A DNA stretch of 19,466 bases from positions 1 through 19,466 of the forward strand of contig JAHENE010000007.1 of NCBI GenBank assembly GCA_024643305.1. The letters are read 5' to 3'. This DNA comes from Thiobacillaceae bacterium. GTDB lineage: Bacteria; Pseudomonadota; Gammaproteobacteria; Burkholderiales; Thiobacillaceae. A program made the position numbers and the translations under genes. A model generated the notes under the pieces. It was not told the origin of the DNA, ran no database searches, and was given only the letters and a program-made list of their open reading frames with translations. This document shows, in pieces, positions 2,939 to 19,466 of this stretch. How positions within the stretch are numbered: the stretch's first letter is position 1; every line of letters starts with the position of its first letter.

Positions 2939-3160
2939 ATGAAATACTCTGTTCTGCTGGCTGCCCTCTTGGCCGTTTCCGTGACCGCTTGCGGCAAAAA
3001 AGAAGAAGCTGCTGAAGCTCCTGCTCCTGCTCCTGAAGCCGCTGCTCCTGCTCCTGAAGCCGCTGCTCCTGCTGCTGACGCTGCCGCTCCTGCTGCTGAC
3101 GCTGCCGCTCCTGCTGCTGACGCCGCTGCTCCTGCTGCTGACGCTGCTCCCGCCAAATAA
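2939..3160 (+). CDS. Small Ala/Pro-rich repeat lipoprotein
   Basis: A 73-residue lipoprotein. The signal peptide MKYSVLLAALLAVSVTAC ends in a good lipobox (VTAC, Cys18), so the mature protein would be acylated and membrane-bound. The mature chain begins GKKEEAAEA and then consists of six heptapeptide repeats: PAPEAAA twice, PAADAAA three times, and a last PAADAAP before the C-terminal AK. No folded domain is expected. Similar GKKEEA-type Ala-rich lipoproteins are common in Betaproteobacteria and have no established function. AAGGGA at 2927-2932, six bases before the ATG, sets the start. Alanine is written mostly as GCT, unlike the GCC/GCG-rich neighbours, which together with the tight promoter and terminator suggests high expression. 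It is monocistronic, ending at a strong terminator. Confidence 0.88.
   Translation: MKYSVLLAALLAVSVTACGKKEEAAEAPAPAPEAAAPAPEAAAPAADAAAPAADAAAPAADAAAPAADAAPAK
3026..3151 (+). repeat. Six 21-bp in-frame tandem repeats inside the lipoprotein gene
   Basis: Codons 30-71 form six 21-bp units, each encoding P-A-(P/A)-(E/D)-A-A-A with the last ending in P. The two first units encode PAPEAAA and the following ones PAADAAA. Units are nearly identical at DNA level (GCT CCT GCT GCT GAC GCT GCC type). Because the unit is a multiple of three, copy-number change would keep the frame. Confidence 0.9.
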
Positions 3161-12567: not shown

Positions 12568-13611
12568 ATGCGTCCCGCCCAACTAATCCCGATTCTTGAG
12601 CGCGAATTCCTGAGCGCAGCCGAAGGACACCATACCCCCGTGATGATGTGGGGCCCGCCCGGCGTGGGAAAATCCCAGATGGTGGGCGAAGTCGCGGTCA
12701 AACATAATGTACCCGTAATCGACATTCGGCTCTCCCAGATGGAGCCCTCCGATCTGCGCGGCATTCCATTTCGCGTGGGCGAACAAGTGGATTGGGCGAT
12801 TCCCTCCATCCTGCCCGACGCCAAGCGCCACGGCGAAAGGGGCATCCTGTTCCTGGACGAGATTACCTCGGCCCCGCCCTCGGTTTCAGCTGCAGCCTAT
12901 CAATTGATTCTCGACCGCCGCCTGGGTGCCTATGAAGTGCCACCGGGCTGGGCAATCTTTGCTGCCGGCAACCGCCAAGGCGACCGCGGCGTGACCTATG
13001 CCATGCCAGCGCCACTCGCCAACCGCTTCTCTCACTTCGACGTGGAAGCCAACCTCGACGACTGGTCACAGTGGGCCTATGAGAACAATATCGATGAACG
13101 CCTGATCGGCTTTCTGCGCTTTCGCCCGGAACTCTTGTTCGACTTCGACCCGGCACGCAATCCCACCGCCTTCCCCACCCCGCGTTCCTGGGAGTTTGCC
13201 CATCGCGCCCTGCAGAAATTCGGCGATCAGCCAGACCTGCTCGGCCCCGCGCTGGCGGCCTGCGTGGGCCAGGCAGCCGGCATTGAGTTCTCGGCCTATC
13301 TTGCCAACCTGTCGCGCATGCCGGACCTGGATGCCATCGTCGAAGGCCGCCCTGCCGACGTTCCGCGCGACACCGACCTGCAATACGCCGTGGCGGCTGC
13401 ACTGGTGGCACGTGCCATCCGCAACAAGAACGGTACAAACATCAAGGAAATGCTGGGTCACATCCTCGACTATGCGGCCAAGTTTCCACTCAAGGAAATG
13501 GGCGTGATGCTGGTATCCGATATCCATCGCAACGTTGGGCAGACGCTGTTTGCGGTGCCGCAGTTCGCCAGCTGGGCCAACCAGGTAGCTGATATCGTTT
13601 TGTACGAGTAA
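12568..13611 (+). CDS. MoxR-type AAA+ ATPase
   Basis: A 347-residue AAA+ ATPase of the MoxR/AAA_5 kind, likely a ring-forming chaperone that remodels a partner, normally the VWA protein encoded beside it. Walker A is GPPGVGKS (29-36), Walker B ILFLDE (93-98), sensor 1 is N135 in FAAGNRQGD, and an arginine-finger candidate is R153 in PAPLANRFSHF. After residue 230 follows a helical lid region. There is no signal peptide or membrane segment. The ATG at 12568 has only a weak ribosome binding site. A 74-bp gap, without a terminator, separates it from the VWA gene. MoxR/VWA pairs such as RavA/ViaA, CbbQ/CbbO and NorQ/NorD activate or assemble metalloenzymes; extension to this pair is inference. 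Confidence 0.93.
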   Translation: MRPAQLIPILEREFLSAAEGHHTPVMMWGPPGVGKSQMVGEVAVKHNVPVIDIRLSQMEPSDLRGIPFRVGEQVDWAIPSILPDAKRHGERGILFLDEITSAPPSVSAAAYQLILDRRLGAYEVPPGWAIFAAGNRQGDRGVTYAMPAPLANRFSHFDVEANLDDWSQWAYENNIDERLIGFLRFRPELLFDFDPARNPTAFPTPRSWEFAHRALQKFGDQPDLLGPALAACVGQAAGIEFSAYLANLSRMPDLDAIVEGRPADVPRDTDLQYAVAAALVARAIRNKNGTNIKEMLGHILDYAAKFPLKEMGVMLVSDIHRNVGQTLFAVPQFASWANQVADIVLYE

Positions 13612-13685
13612 GCAATTTACCGCCGAGAGCACAAGGTTCGCTGAGTGACTCTCTGAATACTCTGCGCTTTAAAAGATTTTGTTGA

Positions 13686-15005
13686 ATGCCGAGCCTTAGC
13701 CAGATCACCTTCGCCAACGATCCTGCCACCAAACTGGCGGCGGCGCGCACGCGTCTGATTCTGGACAAGCCCTTCCTGGGCGCCTTGGTGCTGCGCCTGC
13801 CCATGATCGAAGCCGGACCGTGGTGCCGCACGACCGCCACGGATATGCAAAGCTTCTATTACAACCCCGCCTACATCGACAAGCTGTCCCTGTCCCAGGT
13901 GGAATTTGTGCTGGCGCACGAAGCACTGCATTGCGCACTCACCCATTTCGTGCGGCGCGGCCATCGCATCCAGCGCAAATGGGATCTGGCCTGCGATTTC
14001 GCCATCAACCCCATCCTCATGAACGACGGCCTGCAGCCGCCGCCGGAAGCCGTGGTGCTGAACCAGTTCGAGAACATGAGCGCGGAGGAAATCTATCCCT
14101 GTCTCGACGATAGCCTCGACAACGAGACGCTGGACCAGCATCTCTACGACAACAACGCCGAGGGCAGCCAGAACGGCCAGAGCCAGGAGCCCCCCCCGGA
14201 GGATGCGCCGCAGGACCAGCAGGGAAAATCCGGCGGCGGGTCGCAACCAAAAAATCAGGAACCGCAACAGGGTGAAGGCGGTGGCGCGAAGCCCAATCCG
14301 CAGCAAGGCCAATCCGGGCAAAAGGCCGGCGAAGACGACGACAAGGACAATCCGCCCGTTCCCTTGAATGCGCAGGAGCGCGAAGAATTGGCGCAGAAAT
14401 GGCAGCAGTACCTCGCCAGCGCAGCGCAACAAGCCCAGCAGGCGGGCAAACTGGGTGGGGCCATGGCACGCATGGTTGATGCATGGCTTGAACCGAAGCT
14501 GCCCTGGCGCACGCTGCTGGCGCACTACTTTTTCGACCAGGCACGCAACGACTACAACTACATGCGTCCCTCCCGTCGTGAAGGCGACATGATCCTGCCC
14601 TCTCTGAAAAGTTCGCAGTGCGACCTCATCGTCGCCATCGACACTTCCGGTTCAATCGGCGAAGAAGAGTTGTCTGAGTTTCTTTCAGAGATCAACGCCA
14701 TCAAGGGCGCGCTGCCGGTGCGCATTACGCTGCTGGCCTGCGATGCAAAACTGGCCGAGGACGGCCCCTGGGTGTTCGAGCCCTGGGAAGAATTCCGCCT
14801 GCCGCGCACCTTCCAGGGTGGTGGCGGTACTGATTTCGCGCCGGTGTTCGAGTGGGTTGAAAACGAAAACCTGCGCCCCGACGCGCTGGTGTACTTTACC
14901 GATGCCGATGCCGAATTTCCAGAGAACGCCCCGACCTATCCGGTGATCTGGCTGGTCAAGGGCAAGAAGCCGGTGGCCTGGGGCAAGCGGATTCAGTTGA
15001 ATTGA
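13686..15005 (+). CDS. DUF2201-type protein with HExxH motif and C-terminal VWA domain
   Basis: A 439-residue protein with three parts. Residues 1-140 form a putative metallopeptidase-like domain with HEALH at 78-82 (AHEALHCALTHFVRRG) and a possible further ligand in WDLACDFAIN. Residues about 145-230 are a low-complexity linker rich in Gly, Gln, Pro, Asp and Glu. The C-terminal part is a VWA-like domain with a full MIDAS: DTSGS (LIVAIDTSGSIGEEEL), Thr in GGGGTDFAP and Asp in VYFTDADAEFP. This architecture matches DUF2201 (VWA-like) proteins that are paired with AAA+ ATPases. Whether the HExxH part is a real peptidase is not established. The ATG at 13686 lacks a strong Shine-Dalgarno sequence. 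The TGA overlaps the next ATG (TGATG). Confidence 0.92.
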   Translation: MPSLSQITFANDPATKLAAARTRLILDKPFLGALVLRLPMIEAGPWCRTTATDMQSFYYNPAYIDKLSLSQVEFVLAHEALHCALTHFVRRGHRIQRKWDLACDFAINPILMNDGLQPPPEAVVLNQFENMSAEEIYPCLDDSLDNETLDQHLYDNNAEGSQNGQSQEPPPEDAPQDQQGKSGGGSQPKNQEPQQGEGGGAKPNPQQGQSGQKAGEDDDKDNPPVPLNAQEREELAQKWQQYLASAAQQAQQAGKLGGAMARMVDAWLEPKLPWRTLLAHYFFDQARNDYNYMRPSRREGDMILPSLKSSQCDLIVAIDTSGSIGEEELSEFLSEINAIKGALPVRITLLACDAKLAEDGPWVFEPWEEFRLPRTFQGGGGTDFAPVFEWVENENLRPDALVYFTDADAEFPENAPTYPVIWLVKGKKPVAWGKRIQLN

Positions 15006-16141
15006 TGAAGAACGAACTTTCTTCCGAAGACAGCCTGCGGCTCAATGTGCTGATGATGGCCAACCCCGTACAGGCGGTGCGCATCGACGAAGGCGCAATG
15101 ACGCTCTACGCCCTTACCGAGAGCGGCGAGGCGAAAATCCAGCTGCACCCAAACTGCCGCGCCGATCAGTACACCGGCCGGGTCAAGGAGTTCCTCGGCG
15201 GCCATGCACTCGGCTCGCCCGGCGGCTACCCGGTCTACCTGCAGCGCTGGACGCGCATGGGCCAGACCTCGGACAAAAACCTGGAAGCTTTGCTGCTGCT
15301 GGGCGAACCTGAAGCGGTGGTAGCGGTTGCGCATGCGCCCGGTCTCACCGATGAGCTTGCACGACGGGCATGGTGGTGCCAGCCCACCATGGAAATCGCA
15401 CGCTGGATGCTGGAAAAGGAAGCCGTCATCCAGGGGCAGATGGGCAAGGTGCTGGCCGATTTTTTGATCGAGCATCTGCCATTCGAGGAAAGCACGGATG
15501 CCCGCATGCACACCATTCGCCTGGTGCTCTACGGCAAGCTCGCCGATGAACAGACTACGGCCAAGCTCTGGCGCATGGCCAAGGGCGTGCCCTACTACTT
15601 TATCGGCTTTCTGGAATTCATGCCGGAGACGCTGCCTGACGACCAACCCGCGCGCGCCGATTATGCTGAGGCCGAAAAAGTGCTTGGGCCGCTGGCCAAA
15701 AGCGGCAATGTCTACGCCGAACGTTTCCTCTCCCTGCTCTCTGCCAACGGACAAACCTATCTGAAAGCCATTGCCGAAGTTTTGACAAGACCTTCCACCT
15801 CGCTGGTTGTTTATGCGCTGCTCGATGCCATCAGCCGCTACTTTCACAGCATGGGCTATCCAATCAAGACAGAAAACCTGGAAGATCTGTTTGCCCAAGC
15901 CAGCGCGATTACACGCGGAGAACAGGAAGCACCGCAAGAATTGCAGGCCGTGCTGGCTGCCGCACCGCAATATCGCCAGGGCATCGAAGCCATGCTGGCG
16001 CTGTCCGGCCTCACCAGCAAAACTGCCGACCCCTGGCTGCTGCGCAACTCTGCCGTGGGTGCGCTGATGCGGCGTAAAATTGAGCCATTGATTTCCCCCA
16101 TCAACATGGCAGTGCAGGTCATGAGAATCCCCGTGAAATGA
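15005..16141 (+). CDS. dsrS: DsrS-like protein
   Basis: A 378-residue soluble protein that I recognise as DsrS-like, from the N-terminal SPxDSLRLNVLxAN-type block, MTLYALTESGEAKIQLHPNC, GSPGGYPVYLQRWTRMG, LLLLGEPEAVVAVAHAPGLTDELARRAWW and the C-terminal AVGALMRRKIEP. In Allochromatium vinosum dsrS closes the dsr operon for oxidation of stored sulfur; from memory, mutants there have lowered levels of Dsr proteins, and the mechanism is unknown. No catalytic motif or cofactor site is visible, and the protein is largely helical. A TTG at 15002 is possible, but the ATG at 15005 overlaps the VWA stop and is preferred. Its own stop overlaps the next ATG by four bases. The family assignment is from memory of the sequence. 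Confidence 0.7.
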   Translation: MKNELSSEDSLRLNVLMMANPVQAVRIDEGAMTLYALTESGEAKIQLHPNCRADQYTGRVKEFLGGHALGSPGGYPVYLQRWTRMGQTSDKNLEALLLLGEPEAVVAVAHAPGLTDELARRAWWCQPTMEIARWMLEKEAVIQGQMGKVLADFLIEHLPFEESTDARMHTIRLVLYGKLADEQTTAKLWRMAKGVPYYFIGFLEFMPETLPDDQPARADYAEAEKVLGPLAKSGNVYAERFLSLLSANGQTYLKAIAEVLTRPSTSLVVYALLDAISRYFHSMGYPIKTENLEDLFAQASAITRGEQEAPQELQAVLAAAPQYRQGIEAMLALSGLTSKTADPWLLRNSAVGALMRRKIEPLISPINMAVQVMRIPVK

Positions 16142-16359
16142 AACTCTATCTCGACCCCTCGCAAATCAAGGAACTGCCGGCGCTGATCCGCAGCCCCAAC
16201 AAGACGCGCAAGCGCTATCCGGAAGGGGTGGTGGAAACCGTGGCGAGCGAAGCCGAAGCACTCGAGCGTGCGGAGGAAAACTTGCATCCGGCAATCGTAA
16301 TCGGCCCTTCGCGTTCGTCTGAAGGATTCAGAATTTTTTATCTGGTCAGGTGGCTCTAA
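16138..16359 (+). CDS. Conserved small protein of 73 residues, unknown function
   Basis: A 73-residue soluble protein with no recognised domain. It has mixed charge, with a basic segment (SPNKTRKRYPEGVVETV), an acidic helix (SEAEALERAEENLHPAIVIGPS) and a C terminus ending in IFYLVRWL. There are no cysteines and no signal peptide. The strongest evidence that it is real is its position: its ATG overlaps the DsrS stop (ATGA), and its TAA overlaps the next ATG (TAATG). The codon use also matches the flanking genes. It could be a binding partner or subunit for the DsrS-like or AAA+/VWA proteins, but this is inference from the operon only. Confidence 0.78.
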   Translation: MKLYLDPSQIKELPALIRSPNKTRKRYPEGVVETVASEAEALERAEENLHPAIVIGPSRSSEGFRIFYLVRWL

Positions 16360-16754
16360 TGGAAGAGTTCAAACGTAAACCCATCAACATCCCGGTCGTT
16401 TCCGCGGACCAACCACAGGATCAGGCCTTGAGCGCCTGCTCCGAAGCCGAGCCGTTCGCACTCATGGTGCTGGGCGACAGCATGGAGCCGGAATTTCTCG
16501 ATCAGGAAATCATCGTCATCGAGCCCGAAGGCCTGGCCAAGGACGGCTCCTATGTCATCGCATTTCACAATGAGGAATATACCTTTCGCCAGTTGCTGAA
16601 ACGCGATGCCGGCTGGGCGCTGCATGCGCTCAACCCGTCCTACCCGGATCACCCCATTGCAGATTTATCCTGCATCAAGGGCGTGGTGATCTTGAAAAAA
16701 CAGCCGGGCAGACGCAAATCAGTCAAATACTACATCGAACCGGAGAAACACTAA
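16359..16754 (+). CDS. S24 (LexA/UmuD-fold) protein, probably without peptidase activity
   Basis: A 131-residue protein with the S24 peptidase fold seen in LexA and UmuD. The nucleophile motif is VLGDSMEPEFLDQEIIVIEP with Ser41. The catalytic Lys of LexA/UmuD lies in a TVKRL/TVKKL motif. The aligned stretch here is EEYTFRQLLKR, with Arg77 in the Lys position. There is no N-terminal helix-turn-helix and no Ala-Gly cleavage site, so this is not an SOS repressor. It may be a structural or regulatory use of the fold. A GTG at 16350 is possible, but ATG 16359 has AGGTGG five bases upstream and overlaps the preceding stop. Its TAA overlaps the next ATG. Confidence 0.86.
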   Translation: MEEFKRKPINIPVVSADQPQDQALSACSEAEPFALMVLGDSMEPEFLDQEIIVIEPEGLAKDGSYVIAFHNEEYTFRQLLKRDAGWALHALNPSYPDHPIADLSCIKGVVILKKQPGRRKSVKYYIEPEKH

Positions 16755-16978
16755 TGCCCTACTTCGTTTACGAAATCCACCCATTTCAAATCGTCAAGAA
16801 AATCGCCGAGTTCGACAAGTTCAAGGATGCTTCTGGACATGCCAAGGAACTGCGCGGCAAGCTGACGGGTGCCGACAACTATTCCATCAAGGTCATCTTT
16901 GCCGAGAACGAATTGCACGCCGAAGAGATACTGGGTGAAGTGCGCGAGAAGCCGCCGACCACCGGCGAGGATTATTGA
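16754..16978 (+). CDS. Conserved small protein of 74 residues, unknown function
   Basis: A 74-residue soluble protein starting MPYFVYEIHPFQIVKKIAEFDKF and ending with an acidic tail (REKPPTTGEDY). It reads as a short beta strand, a basic amphipathic helix (KDASGHAKELRGKL), a strand (YSIKVIFAEN) and another helix (ELHAEEILGEV). This beta-alpha-beta-alpha pattern is a plausible small fold. I recall similar proteins in sulfur-oxidising proteobacteria but cannot name the family. The ATG shares a base with the S24 stop (TAATG), with GGAG eight bases before it. It is the last gene before the inverted-repeat element, which begins ten bases after its stop. Confidence 0.78.
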   Translation: MPYFVYEIHPFQIVKKIAEFDKFKDASGHAKELRGKLTGADNYSIKVIFAENELHAEEILGEVREKPPTTGEDY

Positions 16979-16988
16979 TTTAATGCCC

Positions 16989-17148
16989 TGCGCACCCTCA
17001 GAAATCGTCGCGAGCAGGCTCGGCTGCAAGGCGCGCGGCGCGCGGCGCGCGGCGCGCAGGAAGCGGAATGTATACGGATATACATGAGCATTCCGAGTAC
17101 CAAGCAACACAGCAGACGAAACGCGCAGTAGATTTATGAGGATGCGCA
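16989..17148. repeat. 160-bp MITE/REP-like element with terminal inverted repeats
   Basis: The gap between the 74-residue and Cys-rich genes is nearly filled by one symmetrical element. Its ends are TGCGCACCCTCAGAAATC (16989-17006) and GATTTATGAGGATGCGCA (17131-17148), which are inverted repeats matching at 16 of 18 positions. Inside are four GGCGCGC tandem units, a palindrome ATGTATA/TATACAT (17068-17074, 17079-17085) and flanking GGAATG/CATTCC (17065-17070, 17089-17094). It encodes no protein. From memory, similar sequences with the GGAATGTA...TACATGAGCATTCC core recur between genes in beta- and gammaproteobacteria. No clear target-site duplication was seen. The right end supplies GAGG (17138-17141), eight bases before the next ATG. 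Confidence 0.75.
17030..17057 (+). repeat. Four tandem copies of GGCGCGC
   Basis: Four perfect 7-bp units of GGCGCGC lie in the left half of the inverted-repeat element. The unit is not a multiple of three and is outside any gene. It could be a slippage expansion specific to this copy of the element. Confidence 0.9.
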
Positions 17149-17149
17149 C

Positions 17150-17593
17150 ATGAGTGAGTACAACGAGGATGCATACCGCGATGCCCGCAAGTCGGTCAAC
17201 CCGACTCCGTGCGCTTTTGAAAAGGGTGTGCTGGCTCGCTGCATCACCTGCAGCAAAGCGGAGAAACATCTGCTGGCAGAACGGGAAACAATCAATTGCG
17301 GCGACGCTATTGCGCAGGCCCGCTGCCTGGAGCTGAAAACTCTTTTGCGCGGCCACTCCGCTTTCGCGCTGAAGATTCCACATGTTGGCGCGCAACTGCC
17401 TCACGCCAAGGAGCTCAAAATCCAGTGCGGCGGCCTTAAAGGACTGCAATCGGCCATGAATGGCAGCGACAAGGTGGAAGACGCCTTCGCACTGATTGAG
17501 TCAGCGATTTCCAGCCATGGCAGCCTCGATTCATTTCCCTACTCGAATATCGTGCAGGGCGTGGTGCACTTCGAAGCGCGCAGGCGGGGTTAA
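17150..17593 (+). CDS. Cys-rich conserved protein, possible metal or Fe-S binding
   Basis: A 147-residue soluble protein without a signal peptide that I cannot assign to a named family. The N-terminal part holds a four-cysteine pattern, C21-x9-C31-x2-C34-x15-C50, in PCAFEKGVLARCITCSK and TINCGD. Further Cys are at about 59 and 93 (KIQCGGLKGLQ). The pattern suits a zinc or iron-sulfur site. The rest is helical, with SLDSFPYSNIVQGVVHFEARRR at the end. I recall similar proteins in sulfur-oxidising proteobacteria. The ATG at 17150 uses GAGG contributed by the right inverted repeat of the upstream element. It probably belonged to the same operon as the S24 and 74-residue genes before the element arrived, which is inference. 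Confidence 0.8.
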   Translation: MSEYNEDAYRDARKSVNPTPCAFEKGVLARCITCSKAEKHLLAERETINCGDAIAQARCLELKTLLRGHSAFALKIPHVGAQLPHAKELKIQCGGLKGLQSAMNGSDKVEDAFALIESAISSHGSLDSFPYSNIVQGVVHFEARRRG

Positions 17594-17706
17594 TTCGACT
17601 GACACCTTGACATTGAATTGAACCAGGCCGATGCTGGTACGATTCTTCACTTTTAGGCAGATTTTTTGCGCAAAGCTTCACAAGAAATTATTTCATGAGG
17701 CAAACC

Positions 17707-18366
17707 ATGGGTCCACGTCTCTCCAAAAGATCAGGCATCGTCCTGGTCATTTTGAGCTTCAATTGCGCCCATGAAGCCATGGCTGAATCAAATCTGAATT
17801 TGTCTATTCCACAAGACATTCTCACCAACAAGAGCAATTCCCTCCCGAAACAAGATTCACTCACTAACCCCGAAGAGCAAGAGATTCAACGCTCACCGAA
17901 GCAAATGTTCTACGTTCAAAATGCCAATGAGAAAATCCTTCGAAGGTTAAAAGCAGTACCTGCTCAAGATCAGTTTGGAAAACAGATCTGTGGAAAAATT
18001 GAATATCGTGCCAAAGTTCGTCCAAACGGTGAATTAGAGGTAGTTGAGGTTATCCCTGTAAAGCAAAAAGGCAAGTACGAAAGAAAAGTGGCGGTCTATC
18101 TAGAGCAAAATCAAAGCTTGCGAGATTCTAAAGAGGTATCAAGAATGGAAACCTTTACCTCTGATGACGATGAAATCAATATATTTGTAAATGCCATGAT
18201 TGAAGCAATACACGCCGCTGCCCCCTTCCCGCAGTACCAAGACGACGCAAACATTTCCCAGATGAGCGGGACACAAAGAACAATAAAGAGATTCAACCTG
18301 ATCTATGGCACCTTTTGGCGTGAATGCCATAGTTGGACCCCGCCCACTAGAATTAATCCTCAGTAA
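17707..18366 (+). CDS. Putative secreted protein with a TonB-C-like domain, A+T-rich
   Basis: A protein of about 219 residues. The N terminus MGPRLSKRSGIVLVILSF...AHEAMAES is a signal peptide with a basic start and an AMA cut site. A Ser/Asn/Gln-rich stretch follows to about residue 65. The C-terminal half resembles the TonB C-terminal fold: GKIEYRAKVRPNGELEVVEV, an insertion, then a helix ending in AIHAAAPFPQYQ and a final strand KRFNLIYGTF. The classic N-terminal TonB anchor and Pro-rich linker are missing. ATG 17707 has GAGG six bases upstream and is preferred to ATG 17695. Codon use is clearly more A+T-rich than that of the flanking genes, which suggests later acquisition. It sits between two cluster genes with 113 and 122 bp gaps and may have its own promoter. 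Confidence 0.65.
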   Translation: MGPRLSKRSGIVLVILSFNCAHEAMAESNLNLSIPQDILTNKSNSLPKQDSLTNPEEQEIQRSPKQMFYVQNANEKILRRLKAVPAQDQFGKQICGKIEYRAKVRPNGELEVVEVIPVKQKGKYERKVAVYLEQNQSLRDSKEVSRMETFTSDDDEINIFVNAMIEAIHAAAPFPQYQDDANISQMSGTQRTIKRFNLIYGTFWRECHSWTPPTRINPQ

Positions 18367-18488
18367 ACTGATATTGCTTTCGTCCAATATGTTTCCAAGA
18401 AGGCACCCCACTAAGGCGGAATAGTATTTGTCTCAAGACATATACAAAACACCACCACGAATGCAGAGCTTGTCTTAGAGGAAGCACC

Positions 18489-19466
18489 ATGCACAACTTC
18501 CACGAACTGGTCGAAACGGTACAAAGAAACTGCCACATTGCGGATGCCAACCACGCCCGCAATATGACCATGTGCACCTACCTTCTGGAAATGCGCGAAT
18601 TCTTCCGCTGGGAAAACGAGCTGCCGCTCAGCCAACAGCCGCCGCGCGCGGAAATCGGCCCCTGGATCGTCGCCCGCGAATCGCTATGGGAAACCCTGGA
18701 AGAGGACGACTTCGCCGCCTTGCCGGTCAAGGGCCATGCCATCGACCCGTTCGAAAGCCGTGCTGTAAACCTTGAGTTACTCCCGGAAGGCCTGGTCTAC
18801 GGCGCAGGTATTGGGCGTTATCGCAAACCCCACTTCTTCCTTGGCGAACTCATGCGCAAGGAAGAACGTGAGGGACTCACCATCTACGTTACCGGTTGCG
18901 AGTATGCGCGCGACCTTTCCACCCTTCCAGCCGCCTACCAGGATGGCGCCATTTTCCTGCGCACTGATGCGTTGAAACGGGCTCTGTGGGAGAAGGTCGA
19001 ATTGTGGGGGCAGAAAAAACCCGAGGGCGCCATGAAAAAGGCCTTGCAATGTTACGGCTTTGAGCATGATCCCGAGACTGCACTCCTGCGCATGACTGAA
19101 GCCGAAAGCGAGGCCGTCATCCTGCACGAAGTGGGTGAGGCACGCGCAGATAAATTATTGGGTGCCGATTGGAAGAAAATGCTCGCCAGCCTTACCCACC
19201 GGCATGCTGAAGTGCTGGCCAGATCAGTGCGCGACAACCTGGCTGACTGCCTTTCCACCCTGCCCGCGCTGATTGAAAACGAGGCCTGGTGCAGCCTGCA
19301 TTACTACATGGCCGAGTTTGATGGCCTGCGTCTGGTGCTGTTTCCTAAGCTGACTGAAGCTTACAAGAACTGGTGCGGCAACGGTCGGCACGATGGACTG
19401 CTCAAGGCCATCAAAGAAGGGCAGCGGCACTGGAGCAATCAGGCGGAAATGCTGCTGGGCATTTAC
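18489..19466 (+). CDS. Sfum_1244 family protein (runs off the right edge)
   Basis: 326 residues are present without a stop; the 3' end lies outside the window. The N terminus MHNFHELVETVQRNCHIADA, the YLLEMREFFRWENELPL block, WIVARESLWETLEEDDFAALPV, GLVYGAGIGRYRKPHFFLGEL and the later LHEVGEA helix match my memory of the Sfum_1244 family, named after a Syntrophobacter fumaroxidans locus and without known function. It is soluble, with no signal peptide. HEVGE (213-217) in a helical context is a possible metal-ligand set. AGGA (18479-18482), six bases before the ATG, makes the start firm. It is the last visible gene of the AAA+/VWA/DsrS-like region, and its placement there is conserved-looking but unproven. 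Confidence 0.82.
   Translation, partial: MHNFHELVETVQRNCHIADANHARNMTMCTYLLEMREFFRWENELPLSQQPPRAEIGPWIVARESLWETLEEDDFAALPVKGHAIDPFESRAVNLELLPEGLVYGAGIGRYRKPHFFLGELMRKEEREGLTIYVTGCEYARDLSTLPAAYQDGAIFLRTDALKRALWEKVELWGQKKPEGAMKKALQCYGFEHDPETALLRMTEAESEAVILHEVGEARADKLLGADWKKMLASLTHRHAEVLARSVRDNLADCLSTLPALIENEAWCSLHYYMAEFDGLRLVLFPKLTEAYKNWCGNGRHDGLLKAIKEGQRHWSNQAEMLLGIY

Follow-up and report, generated by a model that had tools for sequence, protein, structure and literature searches.

A MoxR ATPase, a DUF2201 VWA protein and DsrS as a candidate functional module of the oxidative Dsr pathway

The closest described relatives of the system considered here are pairs of a MoxR-type AAA+ ATPase and a partner with a von Willebrand factor A (VWA) domain. 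In the available parts of the relevant papers, NorQ/NorD is described as acting in the insertion of FeB into nitric oxide reductase (PMC9976466, PMC13036017), with the linker and the C-terminus of NorD both being important (PMC13036017), and CbbQ/CbbO as a rubisco activase of chemoautotrophs (PMC4660213, PMC8718961). A third protein, DsrS, has its gene tabulated beside dsrR and dsrN (PMC10892978), and the 2011 genome paper of Allochromatium vinosum calls its function “still not resolved” (PMC3368242), again in the available parts of these sources. Here, we describe a locus in which genes for a MoxR ATPase, a VWA protein of the DUF2201 family and DsrS follow one another. It lies in a window of 19,466 nucleotides, the whole stretch of DNA that was analysed, which is contig C213 of a Thiobacillaceae genome with 311 contigs and a listed completeness of 83%. 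In the PA2707-type MoxR subfamily, a MoxR gene likewise adjoins a VWA-like gene; this likeness is by description and not by sequence, and we know of no DsrS partner in that subfamily. The three genes of interest are:

12568..13611, + strand: MoxR-type AAA+ ATPase, 347 amino acids (aa) (Pfam AAA_5, Walker A motif)
13686..15005, + strand: DUF2201 VWA partner, 439 aa (Pfam, AlphaFold2 model, motifs in relatives)
15005..16141, + strand: DsrS, 378 aa (44-46% identity to DsrS encoded in dsr operons; predicted fold)

We suggest that these three proteins constitute one functional module serving the reverse (oxidative) Dsr pathway, and we put the probability of this reading at roughly two in three. The suggestion is made because DsrS, dsrB and the VWA gene co-occur across genomes, including those in which the VWA gene and DsrS are not adjacent.

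The first two proteins resemble NorQ/NorD in that a MoxR AAA+ ATPase is combined with a partner consisting of an N-terminal domain, a linker and a C-terminal VWA domain with a metal ion-dependent adhesion site (MIDAS), as far as NorQ/NorD is described in the available parts of its sources. The ATPase matches Pfam AAA_5 with 40 bits (cut-off 22) and has the Walker A motif GPPGVGKS, and its nearest solved chains are Midasin (E-value 5e-12) and NorQ (E-value 3e-5). The VWA protein matches DUF2201_N (167 bits) and DUF2201 (91 bits) in Pfam; its N-terminal domain carries an HExxH motif (HEALHCALTH) and is followed by a low-confidence stretch (residues 155-218) and a C-terminal VWA domain with a MIDAS (DTSGS), the DxSGS, GGT and TD motifs being conserved in relatives. 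The protein ends in QLN, and its C-terminus is invariant in relatives, which is reminiscent of the importance of the NorD C-terminus in the available part of PMC13036017. The AlphaFold2 model (mean predicted local distance difference test score, pLDDT, 70.6) gives weak matches to VWA-type folds (best E-value 4e-3) and a hairpin at residues 297-304 that is predicted with low confidence. Unlike in NorQ/NorD, the VWA protein belongs to DUF2201, carries HExxH in its N-terminal domain and matches no PDB chain by sequence up to an E-value of 1, and the system has a third partner, DsrS, and is tied to Dsr. With CbbQ/CbbO it shares the occurrence of a MoxR/VWA pair in chemoautotrophs; by contrast, its MoxR is distantly similar (E-value 1e-4 to a CbbQ/NirQ/NorQ-type chain) and its VWA protein falls in DUF2201.

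No Pfam or NCBIfam family matched the third protein above cut-off and, therefore, the name DsrS was tested by gene context. Among 341 relatives from a contig scan, the 80 best ones were taken as loci (L-numbers denote genome-contig loci and G-numbers surveyed genomes). The gene of the relative follows dsrM-K-L-J-O-P-N-R in five loci (L062, L066, L067, L074 and L078) and dsrN-dsrR in two more (L055 and L064); the operon genes of L074 were named by NCBIfam, several of them below the models' cut-offs, and those of the other loci by tblastn. Over about 370 residues, the protein from the window shares 44-46% identity with those of L066, L067 and L074. By DsrS, the closest named relative of the window genome is a Thiobacillus (L002, 97%). 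Thus, the protein, which had been called DsrS-like in an earlier note on this DNA, is a member of the DsrS family as judged from sequence similarity and gene context. The same holds for A. vinosum DsrS (Alvin_1265; PMC3368242 and PMC10892978, available parts), judged through the relatives encoded after dsrN-dsrR and not from the A. vinosum sequence itself. Unlike A. vinosum DsrS, the window protein is encoded outside the dsr genes in an arrangement as if co-transcribed with MoxR/VWA. Its model is a confidently predicted helical solenoid with a small N-terminal alpha/beta part (pLDDT 91.6; predicted template modelling score 0.86).

On a DsrS tree with 80 rows (window included, L041 excluded), the gene has MoxR/VWA nearby in 38 rows, a Sel1-repeat gene in 23 and dsrN/dsrR in 7, with another context in the remaining 12. 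The MoxR/VWA context requires six changes on this tree, at least three of which are forced by starred branches, and none of 500 shuffles reached as few context changes. The linkage between DsrS and MoxR/VWA recurs across loci named as beta- and gammaproteobacteria. The Sel1-type arrangement is a second conserved DsrS neighbourhood: in many gammaproteobacterial loci the Sel1-repeat gene precedes DsrS (e.g. L053:8212-9965), and an unnamed 64-aa gene, a gene of about 190 aa and a nearby divergent Sfum_1244 gene are also found there.

Co-occurrence was counted in 250 genomes of the same order and in 221 genomes of the same class, the window genome being common to both surveys. In the order survey, DsrS was found in 38 genomes, dsrB in 49, VWA in 59 and MoxR in 56; dsrB was present in 37 of the 38 DsrS genomes and VWA together with MoxR in all 38. 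VWA lay within 5 kb and on the same strand as DsrS in 23 of these and was not adjacent in 15; in 14 of the 15, the inspected VWA neighbourhood lacked DsrS, and in the remaining one (G121) a contig break is the probable reason. In the class survey (DsrS in 66 genomes, dsrB in 75, VWA in 65), 63 of the 66 DsrS genomes had dsrB and 62 had VWA, which was within 5 kb of DsrS in 35. Of the 31 DsrS genomes left, 27 had VWA at another place, on a different contig in 22 and farther than 5 kb away on the same contig in 5. When both surveys are pooled, 99 of 103 DsrS genomes have dsrB. By contrast, among dsrB-positive genomes without DsrS, VWA was found in only 2 of 12 (order; both also with MoxR) and 1 of 12 (class), and the comparison restricted to non-adjacent cases gave Fisher p-values of 8e-6 and 3e-6, respectively (1e-5 for the order survey when G121 is excluded). 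Thus, MoxR, VWA and DsrS co-occur far beyond close relatives, DsrS is nearly confined to dsrB genomes, and the tie of the MoxR/VWA pair to sulfur oxidation that the earlier note had proposed is borne out for these core genes.

DsrS without dsrB was found in G280 and G311, where the gap is probably one of assembly because DsrK is above cut-off, in G166 (85% complete), where no DsrK is above cut-off, and in G365, to which we return below. In the class survey, G319 and G384 have VWA without DsrS and dsrB, and G308 has VWA and dsrB without DsrS. Seventeen order-survey genomes have VWA and MoxR but no dsrB match, mostly with separate MoxR branches; among these is G166, where dsrN- and dsrR-like genes lie beside the module. 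Because the pair is present in these 17 genomes, the MoxR/VWA pair as such is not sulfur-specific. On an unrooted MoxR tree with 74 rows, some of them long, 17 rows from 16 genomes without dsrB are split off by a single change (support 79), 55 of the remaining 57 lie under one fork (support 93) and the 40 DsrS-linked rows form one group (support 100, starred). Judged from this split in the sequence tree, Dsr genomes mostly have a distinct branch within a broader MoxR/VWA family.

Several points weigh against a dedicated Dsr module. The counts and Fisher p-values ignore relatedness and contig breaks, the MoxR counts come from the order survey only, the genes were surveyed without an unrelated autotroph gene as control, and a contig break can make neighbouring genes count as “not adjacent”. 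Of the 24 dsrB-positive genomes without a DsrS match (12 per survey), 21 also lack VWA and, therefore, Dsr can run without the module. Conversely, G291, G303, G391 and G443 (class survey) have DsrS, and DsrK above cut-off, without a VWA match. G365 (L101), listed as 100% complete, has no dsrB and only a sub-cut-off DsrK match; it nonetheless retains a Sel1-MoxR-VWA-DsrS-CysG block and Sfum_1244, reflecting either a recent loss of Dsr or a different client. In the MoxR tree, G130 and the second G166 copy, both from Dsr-type genomes, are basal and unresolved beside the non-Dsr rows. The structure matches of the DsrS model are weak. Finally, in the window genome, which has one DsrS, the dsr genes are on a different contig from the module: C251 carries dsrB (517 bits, with a weaker second dsrB-model match before it) followed by dsrM, K, L, J, O and a dsrP that the contig end truncates after its start.

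If the three proteins do form a module, we infer that a MoxR hexamer and the VWA protein would assemble into an ATP-powered remodelling machine comparable with NorQ/NorD and CbbQ/CbbO, and that DsrS, as a predicted alpha-solenoid scaffold, would recruit this motor to a client in the Dsr pathway. The favoured client would be DsrAB, with insertion or repair of its sirohaem/Fe-S (iron-sulfur) cofactor, followed by DsrMKJOP or DsrL. DsrAB is favoured because several lineages have cysG (sirohaem), dsrN and dsrR in the vicinity of DsrS or its cluster: in L008 (Thiobacillus), cysG-dsrR-dsrN starts 6.5 kb after the DsrS gene of a window-type cluster, L102 has dsrR- and dsrN-like genes, and open reading frames (ORFs) of the CysG cluster are present in 21 of 81 loci. 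Because Dsr genomes without the module exist, repair or activation would fit better than an obligatory maturation step. That DsrAB is the client, and a cofactor step the task, is a tentative proposal; a role of DsrS as client adaptor for a MoxR/VWA activase dedicated to inserting or repairing the sirohaem/Fe-S cofactor of oxidative DsrAB is more tentative still.

Downstream of DsrS, the window contains the following features:

16138..16359, + strand: p73, a 73-residue protein (no family in Pfam or NCBIfam)
16359..16754, + strand (GTG start at 16350 possible): S24-fold protein (Pfam Peptidase_S24)
16754..16978, + strand: p74, a 74-residue protein (no family above cut-off)
16979..17149, no strand: GC-rich (guanine and cytosine) spacer of 171 nucleotides (RNA folding)
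17150..17593, + strand: Cys-rich protein, 147 aa (no Pfam or NCBIfam family above cut-off; N-terminal Cys pattern conserved in aligned relatives)
17695..18366, + strand: 223-aa ORF within a window-specific insert (no family)
18489..19466, + strand: Sfum_1244-family protein (DUF6866; NF045620), truncated by the contig end

From 12568 to the contig end, the ORF list thus holds nine consecutive ORFs on the + strand. The eight genes named in the earlier note are all present on this strand; its gene list was incomplete, having overlooked the 223-aa ORF between the Cys-rich and Sfum_1244 genes. The 1-4 bp overlaps it described from the VWA gene to the 74-residue gene are as stated: 1 base between VWA and DsrS (TGATG), 4 between DsrS and p73 (ATGA), 1 between p73 and the S24-fold gene with the ATG at 16359 (10 with the GTG at 16350) and 1 between the S24-fold gene and p74 (TAATG). 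MoxR and VWA are separated by 74 bp, and p74 and the Cys-rich gene by 171 bp. The arrangement is more than a chance one: the order from VWA to Sfum_1244 is repeated in seven Thiobacillus-like loci, L002-L008, with protein identities of 64-100% (tblastn); L002 begins inside VWA, so that its MoxR is outside view. In L012-L014, order and overlaps are largely kept.

The 223-aa ORF is probably unrelated to the module: it has no relative in 80 related loci by tblastn and no Pfam or NCBIfam family, and it lies in an insert of about 0.9 kb (17581-18478) missing from L002, the DNA of which is otherwise about 90% identical. The GC content of the insert is about 0.51-0.52, compared with 0.59-0.61 at 12-16 kb. 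The spacer folds strongly as RNA (z -3.35) and contains an inverted repeat and a run of CGCG-type units; among the available loci, it occurs a second time only in L002 (85%). Elsewhere in the window, a 73-aa ORF at 2939-3160 has a lipoprotein-like start and Ala-Pro-rich repeats (AAPAADAAAP).

The genes downstream of DsrS, apart from Sfum_1244, are much less widespread beside it than the pair. By tblastn at the 80 DsrS loci, where locus ends truncate some clusters, VWA was found in 39, MoxR in 35, Sfum_1244 in 33, the Cys-rich gene in 14, p74 in 13, the S24-fold gene in 10 and p73 in 10 (also L142); for p73, S24, p74 and the Cys-rich gene, these counts refer to DsrS loci and not to whole genomes. 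Word-based searches of 5.8 billion proteins gave 75 relatives of p74 and a Cys-rich family of 171 proteins. The Sfum_1244 protein matches NF045620 with 437 bits (cut-off 150) as well as DUF6866; its family is present in 50 of the 221 class-survey genomes, 47 of which have dsrB; within the dsrB-positive genomes it is weakly associated with DsrS (Fisher p 0.047). Relatives of the Sfum_1244 and Cys-rich proteins are also encoded near dsr genes in gammaproteobacteria. The core can exist without these five downstream proteins, which may have helper roles and are probably lineage-level accessories. The widely conserved adaptor candidate, if there is any adaptor, is DsrS.

DsrS and the pair might, instead of maturing the Dsr system, regulate it, for instance through the level or stability of Dsr proteins, with the S24-fold and Cys-rich proteins as sensors, which we consider rather unlikely. 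S24 folds are frequent in regulators, and the HExxH motif of the VWA protein makes proteolysis conceivable. In L064, L066, L074 and L078, Cys-rich relatives are encoded within about 2 kb of dsrS, in the dsrNRS region, and adjoin glutaredoxin- and S4-domain-type genes; L064 also has an S24 relative about 6 kb from dsrS. However, the S24-fold protein (16350-16754; 62 bits to Peptidase_S24), besides being found at few DsrS loci, has no match to a DNA-binding domain in Pfam. It is indeed a “pseudo-S24” protein: the Ser is kept (GDSM), while an Arg aligns to the catalytic Lys of lambda CI, which we take to be Lys192, and the Lys is replaced by Arg in 13 of 13 aligned sequences, leaving no Ser-Lys dyad. 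Moreover, NorQ/NorD inserts iron (PMC9976466, PMC13036017, available parts).

Alternatively, MoxR/VWA could serve another chemolithotroph trait, such as carbon fixation, Sox or respiration, its association with DsrS being ecological or an inherited linkage. This is consistent with the pair's presence in the 17 order-survey genomes without a dsrB match, with the block retained in G365 and with counts that ignore phylogeny and have no unrelated autotroph control gene. In addition, the pair lies beside soxYZ-type genes in three genomes: in L131:4972-8365 (G127, from the family of the window genome), soxY (Pfam, 106 bits) and soxZ (Pfam, 125 bits) come immediately after MoxR-VWA, with the DsrS of G127 on another contig, and in L129 and L135 the pair is followed by members of the same soxY/soxZ ORF clusters. 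However, among dsrB-positive genomes the pair tracks DsrS and not Dsr alone, even when non-adjacent, the linkage is repeated in loci named as beta- and as gammaproteobacteria, and the MoxR rows of Dsr genomes mostly cluster apart; we regard a different trait as unlikely. A single eight-gene system in which the small proteins act as adaptors, as the earlier note had it, is improbable, since, despite the conserved order and overlaps in L002-L008 and largely in L012-L014 and the presence of p73, S24 and Sfum_1244 beside DsrS in L142, p73, S24 and p74 are found at only 10-13 of 80 DsrS loci and Sfum_1244 tracks dsrB more than DsrS.

Literature searches, which covered mostly papers available without subscription, returned no paper combining DsrS and MoxR; going by titles and abstracts, the matches for DUF2201 concerned other subjects and further searches named no such system, and one of the matches for MoxR with dissimilatory sulfite reductase has MoxR, in its available part, in a table of predicted regulatory sites. 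To our knowledge, no AAA+ activase for dissimilatory sulfite reductase has been described earlier, and a DsrS-dependent activase would be the first if the proposal is true. Because DsrS has a close companion in beta- and gammaproteobacterial loci, often encoded at a distance, its role becomes directly testable. If the module serves the oxidative Dsr pathway as we suggest, this central pathway of the sulfur cycle would gain a machine for maturation or repair, and the MoxR/VWA chaperones would include a three-part variant.

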